From the NCBI GenBank assembly GCA_944385535.1, contig CALWXR010000025.1:1-40291 (forward strand): a stretch of 40,291 bases of DNA, in the 5' to 3' direction. Under the pieces are notes generated by a model. It was given only the letters and a program-made list of their open reading frames with translations. It had not been told where the DNA came from and made no database searches. The position numbers and the translations under genes are program-made. Of the stretch, positions 7,465-13,735 are shown piece by piece (position 1 is the stretch's first letter; every line of letters starts with the position of its first letter). The stretch is from an uncultured Oscillospiraceae bacterium (GTDB lineage: Bacteria > Bacillota > Clostridia > Oscillospirales > Oscillospiraceae).

Positions 7465-7608
7465 CTCATTCACCTCTGGGGTATATCATAGCACATTTGT
7501 TTTGTTTTTCCTACTGCCTTTTTGAAAAAAGTTTGCCGGAGGAATTGGCTCCATATACATGTTTTTCGTCCGCTGGGAAATACTAGCCGGGAAAAGGCGG
7601 TGGGTTTT

Positions 7609-8691
7609 GTGGAGAAGTTTTCCTGTAAGACAACGATTATTTCCGGGGAAGGGGCGATTGCTTCCCTGGCAGAGCTGAAGGCCAATCGGCTGTTTCTGGT
7701 AACGGATCCCTACTTTATGAAAAATGGAGTGGCCCGGAAGGTGGTGGAGGCGGCAAAATGCGCACAGGCGGAGATTTTTGACCGGGTTCAGCCGGATCCC
7801 ACAGTGGCGCTGGCGGCGGAGGGTACCGCCCGGCTGAAGGCCTTTCGTCCGGATCTGGTGGTGGCCCTGGGCGGGGGCAGCGCCATGGACTGCGGCAAGG
7901 CCATGGCCTTTTTCGCCAAAGGAAAGTATCAGATAGCGGCCATCCCCACCACCTCCGGCTCCGGGGCGGAGGTGACGGATTTTGCCGTTTTGACCCATGA
8001 CAAGGTCAAACATCCTTTGGTGGATCCGGGGCTGAAGCCGGATATGGCGATTTTGGACAGCGATCTGCTCCAGGAGCTGCCCAAGGGGCTGATCGCGGAG
8101 ACCGGCTTTGATGTGCTCAGCCACGCTTTGGAAAGCTATGTGGCGAAAGGCTCCGGGAACCTTACGGATCTGTACGCCCGGGAGGCATTCAGCAGCGCCT
8201 ACGCCGCCCTGCCCGCTTCCTACGCCGGGCGGAAGGAGGTGCGGCTGAAGGTGCATTTGGCGGCTACCATGGCGGGCATGGCCTTTACCCAGGCGGGGCT
8301 GGGGCTGTGCCACGCCTTGTCCCACAGCTTAGGCGGGCTGTACCATGTGCCCCATGGGCGGCTGAACGCCATATTGCTTCCGGCGGTGATCAGCTGCAAC
8401 GCCCATGTGGCGGGAAAAAAATACGCCGAGCTGGCCCGGGCGGCGGGGATGGGGGGCAGCGCCGATACCATTGCCCTGCGGAACCTGAAAAACGGCCTGA
8501 TCCGGCTGCGGCAGGAGCTGAACCTGCCCCAAACCCTGGCCCAGGCGGGAGTGGATCCCCGGTCGGTGTGGCGAAACGCGGAAGCAATCGTAAAAGCCGC
8601 CCAGGCAGATCCCTGCTGCCGGGACAATCCAATGGAGGTGGAGGACTTTCTCATCCGCCGGATCCTGGAAGAGGTGACCGGCCGTGTCTGA
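7609..8691 (+). CDS. Iron-dependent alcohol dehydrogenase (EutG/PduQ type)
   Basis: About 360 residues from GTG 7609 (GTG 7600 is an alternative; the frame is open from 7522 but that part is not family-like). NAD binding is marked by VALGGGSAMDCGKAM and PTTSGSGAEVTDFAV. The iron ligands lie in FDVLSHALES, LCHALSHSLGG and HVPHGRLNA. The family reduces acetaldehyde or propanal to the alcohol with NADH and, in microcompartments, recycles NAD+ for the aldehyde dehydrogenase. It is the first gene of the microcompartment locus and appears intact. It is separated from the eutC remnant by a repeat. Confidence 0.9.
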   Translation: MEKFSCKTTIISGEGAIASLAELKANRLFLVTDPYFMKNGVARKVVEAAKCAQAEIFDRVQPDPTVALAAEGTARLKAFRPDLVVALGGGSAMDCGKAMAFFAKGKYQIAAIPTTSGSGAEVTDFAVLTHDKVKHPLVDPGLKPDMAILDSDLLQELPKGLIAETGFDVLSHALESYVAKGSGNLTDLYAREAFSSAYAALPASYAGRKEVRLKVHLAATMAGMAFTQAGLGLCHALSHSLGGLYHVPHGRLNAILLPAVISCNAHVAGKKYAELARAAGMGGSADTIALRNLKNGLIRLRQELNLPQTLAQAGVDPRSVWRNAEAIVKAAQADPCCRDNPMEVEDFLIRRILEEVTGRV

Positions 8692-8740
8692 TGCTGTTTT
8701 TTAATCTTTCATTTTGCTATAAAAAACTATGATATAAAGG

Positions 8741-8813
8741 TAAAATTCAAACATTTTTGATGACGTTCATTTTTGGCGGCGCTGTACTCAGCATGGAGAT
8801 TTAATCAAGAAAT
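8741..8813 (+). repeat. 73-bp dispersed intergenic repeat, copy A
   Basis: Near-identical (67 of 73 positions by eye, no gaps) and in the same orientation to 26822-26894. It begins TAAAATTCAA, contains TTTGGCGGCGCTGTACTCAGC and ends TTTAATCAAGAAAT. Here it lies between the alcohol dehydrogenase and the eutC remnant. No open frame covers it in a consistent way. Confidence 0.9.
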
Positions 8814-8852
8814 AGGATCGGGAACAGGAAACGGGATAGGCAGGAGACAGCC

Positions 8853-9211
8853 ATGAACAAACAGGAATTGGCCGCGATGATCGCGGAAATACTAGGCACC
8901 ATGGAGGCGGAGCCTCTGGCGAAGGGGGGGAGACTACCGCCCCCAGCCGGAGCGGACAAAGACCGGATACCGGGACTTTGCCGGGAAAAACGGAATGGTG
9001 GAAGTGCGCGCCAAGTGCCGGGGCAAGGATGAATACCTGACCCGTCCGGATCTGGGAAGATGCTTCGATGAGGAAAGCAAAGAGAAGATCCGGGCGGCGG
9101 TTCCCGGTACGCCTAAAATTCATCGTGGCGGGGGACGGCCTTTCCTCCGCCGCCATCACCGCCTTCGCCGAAGGGGCGGCTCAGGTGGCGCTTGGGCCGC
9201 GGGAGGAATAG
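8853..9211 (+). pseudogene. eutC: Remnant of eutC (ethanolamine ammonia-lyase small subunit)
   Basis: Three frames carry successive pieces of EutC. First comes a typical N-terminus, MNKQELAAMIAEILG, from ATG 8853 after a ribosome-like CAGGAGACAG. Second, from about 8970, is KNGMVEVRAKCRGKDEYLTR then PDLGRCFDEES, matching the conserved ...EVR...YLTRPDLGR core. Third, from 9116, is KFIVAGDGLSSAAITAF, matching the DGLS...AI element, ending at TAG 9211. The region between the first two pieces is too short for the usual roughly 110 residues, and the C-terminal third (about 100 residues) is gone. EutC with EutB forms the cobalamin-dependent lyase that cleaves ethanolamine, so no functional enzyme can come from this copy. 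Confidence 0.9.
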
Positions 9212-9267
9212 ATACCGGCCTGCGGGGAAAGCTGTTGTAGGCAGCAATATGAAAGGAGAAGGAAGCT

Positions 9268-9573
9268 ATGGATACAAATTCTTTGGGAATGATCGAAACA
9301 AAGGGTCTCGTCGGCGCCATTGAGGCGGCGGACGCCATGGTCAAGTCTGCCAATGTGCAGCTGGTGGGCAAGGAGCAGGTGGGCGGCGGCCTGGTGACGG
9401 TGATGGTTCGGGGGGACGTGGGCGCGGTGAAGGAGGCCACCGACGCCGGGGCAGCGGCGGCGGAAAAGGTGGGCGAGCTGATTTCCGTCCATGTGATCGC
9501 CCGGCCTCACATGGAGGTGGACGCCATTTTGCCCAAGGGCCGTTCCGGCCAGACGCCCCCGGCGGCAAAGTAA
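9268..9573 (+). CDS. eutM: BMC-domain shell hexamer protein (EutM/PduA/PduJ type)
   Basis: 101 residues: a single BMC domain, starting [19 protein letters not shown] and containing [19 protein letters not shown], which is highly conserved in EutM/PduA shells. [20 protein letters not shown] and the VIARPH strand follow, with a short C-terminal tail. It forms cyclic hexamers that tile the facets of a bacterial microcompartment. AAAGGAGAAGG lies upstream. The frame is intact although the genes on both sides are wrecked. Confidence 0.95.
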
Positions 9574-9795
9574 ATGCTCTGCAGCGAAGAAGCGGCCCGG
9601 GCCAATGTCCGAAACCGGGAGGGCAGGAGGGTATTCTACCTGGGTAAGGGGTATCAGCTGACCAGCGCCTTCCGGGATCGGGAGGGAAGGCCTGCCCGGG
9701 TGGACATCCTCCGGGCCTGGAACCCCAGGAGCAGCATGCCCTATATATTGATGGCGCGGTGGAAAAGCGGAAATTTCCCCCCTGACAAAGGATAG
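9574..9795 (+). pseudogene. Fragment, possibly from a eut cobalamin adenosyltransferase (EutT-like)
   Basis: ATG follows the eutM stop directly. The frame gives MLCSEEAARANVRNREGRRV then FYLGKGYQLTSAFRD. This resembles the N-terminus of EutT-type proteins, which begin with an S/TEE...R segment and an LTPxARD motif. After that the sequence loses any family likeness in all three frames (73 codons in the annotated one). EutT makes adenosylcobalamin for EutBC. The match is from memory and weak; it could be the start of another eut accessory gene. The position between two eut remnants supports a degraded gene and not a new short one. Confidence 0.4.
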
Positions 9796-9819
9796 ACTGG
9801 GTTCCTCTGTATGCAAAGG

Positions 9820-10150
9820 ATGAAGATCATGAAGCTGAAAACCACCCTTTTTGGGAAAAACTACACATTTCGAGACATCAAGCAGGCGCTGGCTAAGGCC
9901 AACGAGGAACAACCGGGGACGCTCTGGCGGCGGAGATGATCGCGGCGGTATGCAAGATCATGGGCAAGCGCGCCGGCGTTTTCATGGGCTGCGACTGCTG
10001 CTGCACCAACCATATGAAGGCGGATCAGAACGATATTGAAAATCTGGCGTCCTTGCTGACCTTGGCCGGGTGCAGCTGCTTTATGGGCATTCCCCATGGA
10101 GACGACATTATGCGCAACGATCAGACCACCGGTTTCCGGGAGACGGCTCC
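9820..10150 (+). pseudogene. eutB: Remnant of eutB (ethanolamine ammonia-lyase large subunit)
   Basis: Starts MKIMKLKTTLFGKNY then TFRDIKQALAKANEEQPG, the hallmark EutB N-terminus. After a frameshift near 9920 it continues AAEMIAAVCKIMGK (about position 120-130 of a normal EutB). It then jumps straight to FMGCDCCCTNHMKADQND and AGCSCFMGIPHGDDIM with QTTGFRETA (about position 340-400). So roughly 85 and 210 residues have been lost by two internal deletions, plus the last 50 or so residues. The remaining reading frame contains no complete TIM barrel, so no activity is possible. Its position after eutC and eutM differs from the usual eutB-eutC order, which points to rearrangement. Confidence 0.92.
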
Positions 10151-10189
10151 AGCTTGCTGTTTTAGCGGAAGTCCGGGAAAGGAGGCAGT

Positions 10190-11626
10190 ATGGAACTGGA
10201 TCAAGATCTGGCGGCACGACAGGAGGCGCGGGCTTTGGCAAGGCAGGCTAAAGCCGCCCAGGAGGGGCTGGCGCAAATGTCCCAGCAGGAGTTGGACGCC
10301 GTTGTGGAGGCGGTGGCCAAGGCATTCTCAAGGGAAGCCGCGGTTTTGGCCCAAATGGCGGTGGAAGAAACCGGCTTCGGCAACGTGGAGGATAAGATCG
10401 CCAAGAACCGCTTCGCCTCCGAAACGGTGGCGGCGGCGGTCCGGGGGATGAAAACCGTGGGGATTCTGCGGGAGGATCCGAAGTTTTGGGAGGTAGGCGT
10501 GCCGGTGGGGGTGATCGCCGCCATTGTCCCCAGCACCAGTCCCACCTCTACGGTTTGCTACAAGGCAATCATCGCTTTGAAGGCGGGAAATGCCATTGTC
10601 TTTTCTCCCCATCCCAAGGCGGCGGTCTGCACCCGGAAGGCGGTGGAAATCGTGGCGGAGGCGGCGGAAAAGGCGGGAGCGCCAAAGGGGAGCGTTGCCT
10701 GCCTGACCATTCCCACCCTGGCCGGGTGCCGGGAGCTGATGGGCGCGGACCCGGTGGGGCTGATCCTGGCTGCTGGGGGCCCCGCCATGGTGAAGGCGGC
10801 CTATTCCTCCGGCAAGCCCGCCATGGGCGCAGGGGCGGGGAACGGCCCTGCCTATATCCACCCCAGCGCCGATCTGGGCCATGCTCTGGAGTGCATTGCC
10901 CGATCCAAAAGCTTTGACTACGGAACGGTATGCGCCTCTGAGCAAAGCGTCATTGTGGAGAAGGGGATGGAGCGGCAGACCATAGAGCAGGCCCGAAAAT
11001 TGGGCTTTTACTTTATGGATTCTGACCAGGCGGGAGCCCTGGCAAAGCGGCTGTTTCGGCCTGACGGAAGTTTGGATCCGGCGGCGGTGGGGAAGTCCGC
11101 GGAGCGCCTGGCGGAAATGGCGGGCTTTGCCGTACCCGGGGGGACGCGGGTTCTGGCAGCCCGGGAGCAGGAGACGGGGCCCGCCCGGCCCTGCTCCATG
11201 GAAAAGCTGTGTCCGGTGCTGGCCTTTTTCGTCATGGACAGCGAGCAGGCGGTTCTGGAAAAGGCCATGGAGGTATTAAAGCATGAGGGGGCGGGGCATA
11301 CCTTTGCCATCCACGCCCGGGATCAGGAGGTGATCCGCCGGTTCGCTCTGCAAATCCCCGTGTCCCGGCTCCTGGTGAATACCCCGGCGGCTTTGGGAGG
11401 AATTGGGGCCGCCACGGAACTGTTCCCGGCCCTGACCCTGGGCTGCGGGGCGGTGGGAGGCAGCAGCTCCTCCAACAACATCTCCCCCCTGGATCTGGTT
11501 AACATTCGCCGGGTGGCCTGGGACGCCCGGGAGCATACAGCCGGGGCGCGGGTGGAAAGCTGCTCGGTGAACCCGGAGCTGGTGGAGCTGCTGACGGAAA
11601 AAATCCTGCGGAGGCTGGACGGATGA
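10190..11626 (+). CDS. eutE: CoA-acylating acetaldehyde dehydrogenase (EutE/PduP family)
   Basis: 478 residues, full family length. The N-terminus MELDQDLAARQEARALARQA is the amphipathic helix typical of clostridial acetylating aldehyde dehydrogenases and may serve as shell-targeting peptide. NAD-binding and catalytic motifs are PVGVIAAIVPSTSPTSTV, AGNAIVFSPHP and the catalytic Cys at about 248 in FDYGTVCASEQSVI (Tyr replaces the usual Asn in DNG). GGSSSSNNISP lies near the C-terminus. It converts acetaldehyde, CoA and NAD+ to acetyl-CoA and NADH inside microcompartments. GGAGG precedes ATG 10190. It is followed by pduL after 18 bases. Confidence 0.93.
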   Translation: MELDQDLAARQEARALARQAKAAQEGLAQMSQQELDAVVEAVAKAFSREAAVLAQMAVEETGFGNVEDKIAKNRFASETVAAAVRGMKTVGILREDPKFWEVGVPVGVIAAIVPSTSPTSTVCYKAIIALKAGNAIVFSPHPKAAVCTRKAVEIVAEAAEKAGAPKGSVACLTIPTLAGCRELMGADPVGLILAAGGPAMVKAAYSSGKPAMGAGAGNGPAYIHPSADLGHALECIARSKSFDYGTVCASEQSVIVEKGMERQTIEQARKLGFYFMDSDQAGALAKRLFRPDGSLDPAAVGKSAERLAEMAGFAVPGGTRVLAAREQETGPARPCSMEKLCPVLAFFVMDSEQAVLEKAMEVLKHEGAGHTFAIHARDQEVIRRFALQIPVSRLLVNTPAALGGIGAATELFPALTLGCGAVGGSSSSNNISPLDLVNIRRVAWDAREHTAGARVESCSVNPELVELLTEKILRRLDG

Positions 11627-11644
11627 GGAAAAGAGGGGAGAAGC

Positions 11645-12253
11645 ATGGACGAAGGGCAAATAAATACGCTGGCGGAAGCCCTGATGGGCAGTCTCTTTGT
11701 GGAGCTGGAGGCCTCCGGGCGGCATGTGCATGTGACCAAAGAGCAGGCCCTGACCCTGTTCGGCCACCCGTTGACGCCGGAACGGCCCCTGTCCCAGCCA
11801 GGGCAATATCTTTCCAAGGAGCGGGTCACGGTCATCGGGCCCAAGGGAAGGTTTGACCGTGTGGCAGTGCTGGGACCGGAACGGAAGCGGGCCCAGGTGG
11901 AGATTTCTCTCACCGACGCCCGCACGCTGGGCTTGACGCCGCCGGTGCGCCAGTCTGGGGATGTATCCGGAAGCCCCGGGACACTCCTGGTTGGGGAAGC
12001 CGGACAGGTGGAGCTGAAGCAGGGGGTCATTGCCGCCCAGCGGCACATCCACCTGACGCCCCAGACCGCCGCCCGGTTTGGGGCGGGGGATCAGCAGAGG
12101 GTGAAGCTGAAAACATACACCCATCGGCCGGTGGTGTTTGAGGATGTGGTGGTTCGGGTCAGTCCGGATTTTGCCAGCTATGCCCATTTGGATTATGATG
12201 AGGCCAACGCCTGCGGGTTTCAAAAAGGGGACTTGGGGAGGATCTTGCCATGA
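11645..12253 (+). CDS. pduL: Phosphate acyltransferase PduL
   Basis: 202 residues, a duplicated PduL beta-barrel. The zinc-binding residues are visible in ASGRHVHVT (near residue 25), AAQRHIHLT (near 128) and YAHLDYDEAN (near 182). It converts acyl-CoA and phosphate to acyl phosphate, regenerating CoA inside the shell and feeding acetate/propionate kinase. The N-terminal 20 residues before the barrel could be an encapsulation peptide. The stop overlaps the next start by 4 bases (ATGATCC...). It is intact. Confidence 0.93.
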   Translation: MDEGQINTLAEALMGSLFVELEASGRHVHVTKEQALTLFGHPLTPERPLSQPGQYLSKERVTVIGPKGRFDRVAVLGPERKRAQVEISLTDARTLGLTPPVRQSGDVSGSPGTLLVGEAGQVELKQGVIAAQRHIHLTPQTAARFGAGDQQRVKLKTYTHRPVVFEDVVVRVSPDFASYAHLDYDEANACGFQKGDLGRILP

Positions 12254-12648
12254 TCCGGGCGCTGCTTATCGGGCAGGAGCCGGCCGCCGCCCTGGGGTAT
12301 GAATATGTGCGGGAGGCTCCCTTTGAGGCGGTGGTCATTGGATCTCTGACCATTTCCCAGCTGCTGCGGTTTCGGGAGGAATCGGTTCTGGAGGCCCTGG
12401 CGGAGGGAAAGCCGGTGTATTTGTACACCCCGGGGCTGCCCCAGTCCCCCAGGAACCGGGAGCTGGGGGCCAGTCTCACCGCCGCCCAGCGGGAACTGAA
12501 AAACTGGGGGGTTCTGTTTACCGACGGAGGCAGGAAGAAACTGATCACCGCTCAGGAGGCAAGGCTCCTGCGCAGCGCTGGTCAGCGGCCCGGCCCGGGC
12601 GCGGTGCTGACGCCCCTTGCCAAGGAGATTATGGAGGGAACGAAATGA
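12250..12648 (+). CDS. Microcompartment-associated protein of unknown function (eut_hyp type)
   Basis: 132 residues with overlapping starts at both ends: it overlaps pduL by 4 bases, and its TGA overlaps the eutN ATG. Residues 1-60 look like a small Rossmann/flavodoxin-like fold (AVVIGSLTISQLLRF, then GKPVYLYTPGLP). The C-terminal half is helical and basic. Similar uncharacterised proteins are found between pduL and eutN in clostridial ethanolamine operons. The role is unknown. Tight coupling to shell and enzyme genes says it belongs to the compartment. Confidence 0.75.
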   Translation: MIRALLIGQEPAAALGYEYVREAPFEAVVIGSLTISQLLRFREESVLEALAEGKPVYLYTPGLPQSPRNRELGASLTAAQRELKNWGVLFTDGGRKKLITAQEARLLRSAGQRPGPGAVLTPLAKEIMEGTK

Positions 12649-12875
12649 AGGTTGGAAAAGTGGTAGGAGCCGTTTGGGCAACCCGGAAGGCGGCCTGTTT
12701 ACAGGGTCAGACCTTCCTGGTGGTGGAGGCCGACGGGGAGAAGATTGTGGCGGCGGATCAGGTGGGAGCGGGTACCGGAGACCGGGTGCTGCTGGCCACC
12801 GGCACCGTAGCCAGCCGGTACTGCATGGACGCCCCGGTGGACGCGGCAGTGGTGGCCGTTGTGGATGAAAAGTAG
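12645..12875 (+). CDS. eutN: BMC vertex pentamer protein (EutN/CcmL family), short at the C-terminus
   Basis: 76 residues: MKVGKVVGAVWATRKAACL, then QTFLVVEADG, the diagnostic GAGTGDRVLLATGTVAS and APVDAAVVAVVDE. These are the EutN/CcmL core strands that form pentamers capping shell vertices. Relatives run about 85-99 residues and continue past VDE with a last strand. Here the frame ends at TAG exactly where a repeat module begins, so the last 10 or so residues appear replaced by repeat DNA. The fold core is complete, so it may still work. Start and frame are unambiguous (ATGA overlap with the preceding gene). Confidence 0.9.
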   Translation: MKVGKVVGAVWATRKAACLQGQTFLVVEADGEKIVAADQVGAGTGDRVLLATGTVASRYCMDAPVDAAVVAVVDEK

Positions 12876-12940
12876 GGGCCTCCCCAGGCTCCCCCTATGG
12901 GGAAGCTGTCACGGTGTAAGCCGTGACTGAGAGGGTATAC
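12874..12940 (+). repeat. Repeat module with GTCACGG...CCGTGAC hairpin
   Basis: The segment AGCTGTCACGG...AAGCCGTGACTGAGAGG matches, in inverse orientation, the hairpin inside the MITE at 22079-22356 (AGTCACGG, then CCGTGACAGC). It begins on the eutN stop codon. Confidence 0.6.
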
Positions 12941-12989
12941 CGCGTCCTCTGTACGGAGAACCGCCCGTCGCCCCCGCCACACCAAACGC

Positions 12990-13026
12990 CTGTCATCTCG
13001 AGCGAGCGAAGCGAGTCGAGAGATCT
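12990..13026 (-). repeat. TCGAG palindromic repeat, copy 1
   Basis: Starts CTGTCATCTCGAGCG and ends GTCGAGAGATCT. It is the reverse complement of the cores at 13103-13131, 13192-13212 and, more diverged, 30797-30826. Confidence 0.75.
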
Positions 13027-13060
13027 ACGCGCTTGCCGCCTGTAGGTACCAAAATGGTTG

Positions 13061-13212
13061 CTGCGGAGGAACCAACGGAGGTTTCAGGTTCCATGGATGC
13101 CAAGATCTCTCGACTGCGCTCGAGATGACAGAATTCTTAGTGCGGAGGAACCAACGGACGTTTTTTGGTTCCGCAGATGCCAGGATCCCTCGACTTCCCT
13201 CGGGATGACAGG
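13061..13212 (+). repeat. Two tandem copies of a 72-78 bp repeat unit
   Basis: Unit 1 (13061-13131) and unit 2 (13140-13212) share TGCGGAGGAACCAACGGA, GGTTCC, GATGCCA and a TCTCGACT...CTCGAGATGACAG palindrome. The palindrome is related to 12990-13026 and 30797-30826. Only two units exist and there is no spacer regularity, so this is not a CRISPR array. Confidence 0.8.
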
Positions 13213-13297
13213 TGTTTGGTGCAGAGGAAGGGACGGGGCGCGGCGGTTGCTATGGTACCTACAAACGGCAGCAATCAGCAGGAGAGAGGGGAAAACC

Positions 13298-13440
13298 ATG
13301 TCGTTTCATGTGCCGTTATGGCGGTATTCGCGGCGCTGGGGGCTGTTGACCGGATCCTGGGCAACCGGTTCGGACTGGGGAAGGAATTCGGAAACGGCAT
13401 CCTGGCTATGGCATTGTGGATGACCCGGAAGGAACGCTGA
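13298..13440 (+). pseudogene. eutH: 5' remnant of eutH (ethanolamine transporter)
   Basis: After AGGAGAGAGG there is ATG 13298 (MSF...). One frame over, the sequence reads AVMAVFAALGAVDRILGNRF then GLGKEFGNGILAMAL. This is the conserved first membrane segment and loop of Firmicutes EutH, where ...MxFFxxLGAxDRIxGNKFGLGxxFEEGxMAMG is usual. A frameshift lies within the first 10 codons and the frame ends at TGA 13440, leaving about 40 of some 360-400 residues. EutH brings ethanolamine into the cell. Its place right after eutN matches clostridial eut operons. This is the third ethanolamine-specific gene lost at this locus. Confidence 0.75.
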
Positions 13441-13454
13441 TTTGGGATTGGGTG

Positions 13455-13484
13455 TTGACAAAAAGGACGGGTTCGGGTTATAAT
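13455..13484 (+). promoter_or_regulatory. Sigma-A promoter of metG
   Basis: TTGACA and TATAAT, both perfect, with an 18-base spacer. Transcription should begin near 13491 and give a leader of about 260 bases. Confidence 0.85.
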
Positions 13485-13490
13485 GATTCC

Positions 13491-13735
13491 AATATTTGCA
13501 AAAGCTGTGAAGAGGAGAGTACCCTTTGCGGCCGCCGGTCAGAGAGCCCTGTTTGGTGGGAGGGGGTACGGCGCGCGGAAGGGGAACATGGCCTCGGAGC
13601 CGGGCCTTCGATAGGTAGGGGGCCCCGGGAGATCCCGTTATCGATCCCATGAGGCAGCGGGCTTTTCCGCTGTAAATCAAGGTGGTACCGCGTCAGCTCT
13701 GTCGCCCTTGGGTTTTCCAAGGGCGATTTCTATCT
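13491..13735 (+). promoter_or_regulatory. T-box riboswitch leader (Met specifier) of metG
   Basis: The leader contains the Stem I signature GAGGAGAGTA, the AGAG bulge region, and a specifier-loop segment GGGGAACATGGCCTCGGAG. Within that segment, ATG at 13588-13590 sits where the specifier codon is expected, between GAAC and the conserved GGAG. The T-box proper AAGGTGGTACCGCG is at 13679-13692. A terminator follows. Uncharged tRNA-Met should pair with the specifier and the T-box to stabilise the antiterminator and allow metG expression. The AUG codon agrees with the downstream gene. Confidence 0.92.
13703..13730 (+). terminator. Regulatory terminator of the metG T-box
   Basis: Stem CGCCCTTGG/CCAAGGGCG with a 5-base loop followed by ATTTCTATCT. 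Competing pairing with the T-box sequence upstream gives the antiterminator. Confidence 0.85.

Follow-up and report, generated by a model that had tools for sequence, protein, structure and literature searches.

What becomes of a bacterial microcompartment (BMC) locus once the enzyme that makes its aldehyde is lost: do the remaining genes stay open only until they decay, or is part of the locus kept? The question is raised by an ethanolamine-utilization (EUT) locus of an uncultured Oscillospiraceae bacterium (assembly GCA_944385535.1), which extends from the start of adh (position 7609) to the stop of the eutH remnant (13440) in contig CALWXR010000025.1. This single 40-kb contig (40,291 nt), hereafter called the window, belongs to a draft genome of 2.85 Mb in 121 contigs that is 99.05% complete. 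Compared with relatives, the locus retains six open frames of full length (adh, eutM, eutE, pduL, hyp and eutN); eutA and eutL are gone, and eutC, eutT, eutB and eutH are reduced to remnants. The reading that we prefer, with a probability of roughly 0.58, is that an EUT-type locus has been reduced module by module to a metabolosome without a signature enzyme, in which the shell is constrained while the enzymes are relaxing or shifting.

The complete locus in relatives and its remains in the window

The comparison set consisted of 136 genomes of the genus, the window's own genome (G000) included. Relatives were ranked by full-length matches to MetG, which is encoded beside the locus; MetG identity to the window is 94% for G087, 91% for G043 and at most 89% for the remaining relatives. 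The DNA upstream of metG was then compared in 20 relatives, some of the stretches ending at contig edges. Both G087 and G043 carry a complete locus in the gene order of the window, that is, adh-eutA-eutC-eutL-eutM-eutT-eutB-eutE-pduL-hyp-eutN-eutH-metG. In G087, Pfam assigns proteins of the locus to EutA, EutC, EutB, EutH and the cobalamin adenosyltransferases (Cob_adeno_trans); a further one has two BMC domains and is EutL, judging by its position and sequence. In the remaining relatives the genes are reordered, form a partial set or are absent from the stretch compared. The window locus lies between ruvC and metG, and ruvC is likewise upstream in five of the 20 relatives' stretches. Since G087 and G043 have the complete locus in the same order, the ancestor of the window had the complete set; on either side of the window's branch there are relatives with complete loci.

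A preliminary description of this DNA had listed full-length genes for an alcohol dehydrogenase (ADH), EutM, a EutE-like protein, PduL, an eut_hyp-type protein and EutN on one strand, and comparison with the relatives confirms all six. Pfam backs five of them, the exception being hyp. The open genes are:

7609..8691, + strand: adh, Fe-containing alcohol dehydrogenase, open and full length (Pfam ADH_Fe_C 3.5e-41, Fe-ADH 5e-37, match frame 7522-8688); protein 77% identical to that of G087 over 360/360 residues
9268..9573, + strand: eutM, BMC-H shell protein, open (Pfam BMC 7.6e-29; 97% identical to G087)
10190..11626, + strand: eutE, CoA-acylating acetaldehyde dehydrogenase, open (NCBIfam TIGR02518 6.7e-184; score 612.3 bits, below the cut-off of 620.1)
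11645..12253, + strand: pduL, phosphotransacylase (PTAC), open (Pfam PTAC 6.9e-70)
12250..12648, + strand: hyp, conserved locus protein of 132 aa, open and constrained, present in relatives' loci (no Pfam match; TIGR02536 eut_hyp match below cut-off, E 0.0051)
12645..12875, + strand: eutN, BMC-P vertex protein of 76 aa as in G043, open (Pfam EutN_CcmL 5.5e-21)

The same description had recognized remnants of eutC, eutB and eutH, and these do occupy the positions of the intact genes in G087 and G043. The losses are larger, though, as eutT is also a remnant and both eutA and eutL have disappeared. The remnants and the sites of loss are:

8692..8852, no strand: AT-rich dispersed repeat at the place of eutA in G087 and G043 (161 bp, 36.6% GC versus 55.5% for the window)
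8853..9169, + strand: eutC remnant in two pieces (8853-8948 and 8971-9169), with an internal deletion, two frameshifts and the 3′ end missing
9170..9267, no strand: deletion site at which, by comparison with intact relatives, the eutC 3′ end and the whole of eutL were removed
9574..9792, + strand: eutT (cobalamin adenosyltransferase) remnant, both ends retained and the middle deleted
9829..10167, + strand: eutB remnant, comprising the beginning of the gene, two fragments from its interior and its final codons with the stop; three deletions and a 1-base frameshift
13297..13440, + strand: eutH remnant, first ~40 and last ~10 codons; deletions of 10 bases and ~0.9 kb

Searching the window by tblastn with the relatives' genes gave no match to eutA anywhere and none to eutL; the BMC profile matches a single gene in the whole genome, eutM. 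The eutC remnant retains the first ~32 codons and codons ~116-182, and the two tblastn matches to eutT (query residues 1-47 and 190-238 of 238) overlap in the window. The EutB profile matches its remnant with 2e-23 over 83 positions (339-421 of 435) and the EutH profile with 2.3e-7, which excludes a chance resemblance of the remnants. Altogether, at least eight separate deletions of at least 98 bp, plus small indels, broke the set of EutBC, EutA, EutT, EutL and EutH.

The repeat at the place of eutA has four further partial copies in this genome (G000:C25:26822-26894, C10:15649-15754, C5:50178-50281 and C10:45750-45800), of ~50-110 bases and 80-92% identity. Six copies occur in G014, and five of the 136 genomes show a match.

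Tests of selection on the retained genes

Three tests bear on whether the six genes stayed open by chance. In the first, eight deletions of the observed lengths (98-1,318 bp, read by eye from the alignments) were assigned random, non-overlapping positions within the 10.2-kb locus. Not one of 300,000 placements spared all six open genes and, when the deletions were merged to five events, a single one of 300,000 did so. That is, the deletions have spared the core far beyond random placement, and the view of the preliminary description that the aldehyde and shell genes were retained is borne out. Second, small frameshifting indels number 4-5 in the ~930 bp of remnant (indels and length both counted by eye in the alignments) versus none in the 4,047 bp of the core, with a conditional P of 0.0012 to 0.0002 for the six genes and 0.024 to 0.009 for eutE alone. 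Third, residues invariant in eight intact relatives were changed in the window at 17 of 125 positions in the remnants versus 31 of 686 in the core (Fisher P 0.0003). The same treatment of G087 gave 4/125 changed residues in the genes that are remnants in the window and 27/686 in the core and, when invariance was required across nine relatives instead, the window values were 15/121 and 26/659, respectively. Taken together, the three tests suggest that selection acted on the core during the loss of the ethanolamine module.

Unequal constraint on shell genes and enzymes

Codon models were fitted in two ways: a branch-specific omega (dN/dS) with five taxa, and a mixture model with eight taxa in which f is the fraction of a branch evolving neutrally. 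The remnant set comprised 221 of 298 codons; left out were the pieces of eutT, 20 codons at the end of the eutB fragment and 8 at one of the eutC frameshifts. The window-branch omega was 0.035 for eutM (background 0.043), 0.084 for eutN (0.084) and 0.073 for hyp (0.118), with 0.031 (0.054) for the control gene metG. The values were 0.217 for adh (0.141; twice the log-likelihood difference, 2dlnL, 2.0) and 0.150 for pduL (0.102; 2dlnL 0.7).

In the mixture model, adh, eutE and pduL together gave an f of 0.08-0.11, and setting f to 0 cost a 2dlnL of 13.2 with the species topology and 9.1 with the eut topology, the two trees disagreeing in that G087 is grouped with the window or with G043. For eutE alone the cost was 7.7 (species topology) and 3.5 (eut topology, not significant at 5%), and for adh alone 6.4 and 6.0 in two runs; on the G087 branch, eutE has f=0. 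For eutM, eutN and hyp together f was 0, and imposing f=0.04 cost 4.8-5.7; for hyp by itself, f=0.06 cost 4.4. The remnants had an f of 0.04, with f=0 not rejected (2dlnL 1.15 and 1.6 in two runs). With 249 remnant codons the signal was weaker, f being 0.02 and f=0 costing only 0.05. By the mixture model, therefore, the disturbance of the enzymes equals or exceeds that of the remnants, whereas the shell genes and hyp show none, and the loss of the ethanolamine module is recent relative to the window branch. The dN/dS comparison on which the preliminary description had made retained function depend is thus divided, with eutM, eutN and hyp undisturbed and the combined adh, eutE and pduL carrying excess replacements on the window branch.

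Conserved columns were also compared with homologs. PduL departs at none of the 49 columns that are ≥90% conserved among 61 homologs, EutN at one of 22 and hyp at one of 51. EutM departs at one of 50, where A56E replaces an Ala found in 86 of 86 homologs. ADH departs at two of 77 (G087 at one of 77), one of them being S120A at a position with Ser in 38/38 homologs. The departures of EutE number 3/118 versus 4/117 in G087, a count that is not unusual, although none of those in G087 is at a column conserved in all 80 homologs; one of those in the window is residue 195, Ala in place of a Thr present in 80/80.

A core without its signature module

The ethanolamine set, i.e. the EutBC lyase, the EutA reactivase, EutT, the two-domain BMC protein EutL and the EutH transporter, was broken by multiple deletions and small indels, all of which spared the core. 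We propose that the genes adh, eutM, eutE, pduL, hyp and eutN were selected while this module was lost, and that the core was useful without the lyase for some time. What is left would encode a single protein that forms hexamers (EutM) and a single one that forms pentamers (EutN), together with ADH, an acylating aldehyde dehydrogenase (AldDH) and a PTAC. Such enzymes link alcohol, aldehyde, acyl-CoA and acyl-phosphate and, for C2 compounds, lead from ethanol to acetyl-phosphate or the reverse. The remaining enzymes could in principle interconvert ethanol, acetaldehyde, acetyl-CoA and acetyl-phosphate, with no aldehyde-making lyase of their own. Selection on the three enzymes may since have weakened or been redirected to another substrate, while that on the shell would persist. 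By analogy, a shell made from EutM and EutN alone is conceivable, given that hexamer-pentamer particles without BMC-T have been described for GRM2 proteins (cmcABC′ plus D, modelled as cmcC′ and cmcD; PMC6971018).

Several observations weigh against such a retained core. The deletion-placement test was devised after the pattern had been seen, and all evidence comes from one assembly of the window species. Of the invariant residues of eutE alone, 18/278 are changed, which differs from the remnants with a P of 0.02 only. The window-branch omega of eutE is 0.178 versus a background of 0.098 (2dlnL 6.2) and that of the trimmed remnants 0.149 versus 0.084 (2dlnL 2.9). Without hyp, eutM and eutN reject f=0.11 but not f=0.04. 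In addition, the branch excess of eutE and adh is as large as that of the remnants (f 0.02-0.04), which means that the codon model alone cannot separate selected enzymes from enzymes relaxed since the loss of eutB. Finally, EutE has Ser at residue 117, a position occupied by Asn in 80 of 80 homologs. In the Clostridium phytofermentans enzyme the catalytic Cys is residue 269 and the oxyanion residue N138 (PMC4762007); the spacing of 131 is the same between 117 and the retained catalytic Cys248, which identifies 117 as the position of the oxyanion Asn. Asn117Ser would likely abolish the usual activity or reduce it strongly. The aldehyde core that the preliminary description called intact is therefore intact in its reading frames but not in all of its catalytic residues.

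The most serious alternative is plain decay, in which loss of the lyase left the locus without any use and the frames are still open only for lack of time. The relaxed-like excess of replacements in the enzyme genes, the lost oxyanion Asn of EutE, the alteration of ADH Ser120 and EutM Ala56, and the short time since the loss indicated by the remnant f of ~0.04 would all fit it. What it leaves unexplained is that the eight deletions miss all six genes, that the core has accumulated no frameshift, that the shell genes with hyp reject the f of the remnants, and that change at invariant columns of the core, taken whole, is G087-like. We regard plain decay as doubtful, though it has to be taken seriously. 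Another and more tentative possibility, which we think unlikely, is a metabolosome in the middle of a switch: the ethanolamine module would have been removed together with EutL, its dedicated shell pore, selection on the EutM/EutN shell would continue, and ADH and EutE would be changing either to act on a different alcohol or aldehyde or because what is being kept is the shell as such.

The rest of the genome

A module-by-module reduction raises the question of what else the genome encodes. The sole match to the EutB profile in this 99%-complete genome is the fragment at the locus, and the sole EutH match genome-wide is the locus remnant; no intact copy of either gene was found elsewhere. Of the EutBC lyase there is thus a EutB fragment, with the eutC remnants at the locus (EutC was not searched for genome-wide). 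Ethanolamine use by this route is lost, as the preliminary description had concluded. We also considered that the locus might be a dead second copy and rejected this, because the genome has no other EutB, EutH or BMC-domain match.

A glycyl-radical enzyme, which the preliminary description had offered as a substitute source of aldehyde, is not supported: no PFL-like enzyme was found in the genome by a search that matched in three of 14 control genomes, and this candidate was rejected. The search for diol dehydratase (PF02286) matched nothing even in control genomes, and no inference was drawn from it. The searches for EutB, BMC and PFL-like proteins found no aldehyde-generating enzyme beside an AldDH and shell genes (aldolases were not searched for), nor a second BMC-domain gene. 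The suggestion that the core serves another aldehyde source may still hold, with no such source located.

The genome has three Aldedh matches, namely EutE, ProA (its gene flanked by proB and proC) and a dehydrogenase of non-acylating type beside an Fe-ADH, the latter two types being our assignments from sequence. No bifunctional AdhE is among them, and no CoA-acylating aldehyde dehydrogenase other than EutE was found. This would favour a role of the enzymes in cytosolic ethanol or acetate fermentation, with the shell genes riding along. Such a role predicts the opposite of what is seen, since the shell genes are better conserved than the enzymes, and the genome has its own full-length Pta elsewhere (among nine genomes compared, Pta was found in seven and not in G082 and G021). 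We therefore hold it improbable; that PduL was retained as the sole phosphotransacetylase was rejected on account of the same Pta. Misassembly or strain mixing could be suspected in a single draft of 121 contigs, but is very improbable, as eight deletions with collinear remnants and six clean frames lie on one 40-kb contig with ruvC-metG flanks as in the relatives.

How rare the arrangement is can be judged from the congeners. BMC matches were found in 101 of the 136 genomes, mostly three per genome among those listed and one in this genome; we read the three as eutM plus two in eutL. An EutB match is present in 97 of the 100 other BMC-bearing congeners, in some only in pieces (over two contigs in G050 and G088, at a contig edge in G079). 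The three lacking one are G015, where the contig begins at eutM, G089, where the locus is split over two short contigs, and G030. Among the congeners examined, which do not include G030, the window is the one case in which EutB was lost in place and the core retained. We know of no comparable locus in print from a limited literature search. EutE proteins 66-73% identical to that of the window occur in 25 of 80 loci compared, all 25 from metagenome-assembled genomes (18 labelled Oscillospiraceae bacterium and one Candidatus Faecousia).

Further observations concern the loci of congeners. The eut gene order differs strongly between close congeners with the locus still beside metG (L065, L067 and L069 versus L063, L064 and L066), and in G043 (L064) spacers of ~200 bases with similar sequence containing CTTCCCCCGGGGGGAAG precede eutC, eutM and eutB. 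More distant, second EUT-like loci exist in G112 (L180, G112:C10:8000-26000, which has a EutB of its own besides several BMC genes) and also in G115:C3 and G078:C55, of which only that of G112 was read. In G025, G038, G063, G022 and G133, the match to MetG is split in two inside a single open frame of 787-834 residues, which suggests an insertion in metG of one group.

Flanking sequences

Upstream of adh lies a partly conserved element:

7558..7608, + strand: GGGRAATACTRG, then GAAAAGGCGGTG, the latter resembling a ribosome-binding site

The element is recognisable in all seven aligned loci (the window and six relatives), except that its second half is not recognisable in G087. It is possibly a promoter or operator; a sigma-70 scan did not report it. 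On the other side of the locus, the stretch 13455-13712 in front of metG begins with a perfect TTGACA-18-TATAAT promoter match, followed by a T-box leader (13498-13712). A palindrome-like stretch at 13004-13026 has no second copy within the window.

Comparison with known systems

By its gene content the window locus resembles an EUT metabolosome, EUT2-like by our own assignment of the subtype. With the EUT type, as outlined in PMC4207490 and PMC8156839, it has in common EutE, a PduL-type PTAC, ADH, EutM and EutN, so that the core AldDH, alcohol dehydrogenase and PTAC as well as BMC-H and BMC-P are all present; the signature lyase EutBC and EutA, EutT, EutL and EutH are broken or absent. The nearest described analogue appears to be the ETU ethanol metabolosome of Clostridium kluyveri, which according to PMC4207490 combines alcohol and acylating aldehyde dehydrogenases with shell genes but has no lyase. 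In that account, however, ETU has several dehydrogenase copies but neither PTAC nor BMC-P, whereas the window has PduL and EutN. Unlike ETU as described there, the window carries eut remnants that show its origin.

Metabolosome loci with an AldDH and shell genes but no obvious signature enzyme are described as numerous in the survey PMC8217296 (ACI, FRAG1-7, HO, MIC2-7 and MUF2-3). The window would share with the MIC, MUF and FRAG kind the combination of AldDH and shell without an aldehyde-making enzyme, and differs from them, as they are presented there, in that its remnants reveal the way in which the signature enzyme disappeared. The same survey describes satellite "EUT modules", made up of EutA/B/C and an EutL-type BMC-T, beside other microcompartments, and notes that PDU and GRM4 differ by an exchanged signature enzyme. 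The set lost in the window contains such a satellite module, there added to other BMCs and here removed. Intact congeners allow the loss of the signature module to be dissected here, and constraint on the window branch differs between shell and enzymes, so that survival of a metabolosome core without its signature enzyme, and what is kept of it, becomes directly testable. A half-way stage of this kind may show how protein-shelled organelles are lost or get new jobs. What would be new in comparison with these systems is an EUT locus apparently reduced to a signature-less metabolosome, with the remnants that show how.

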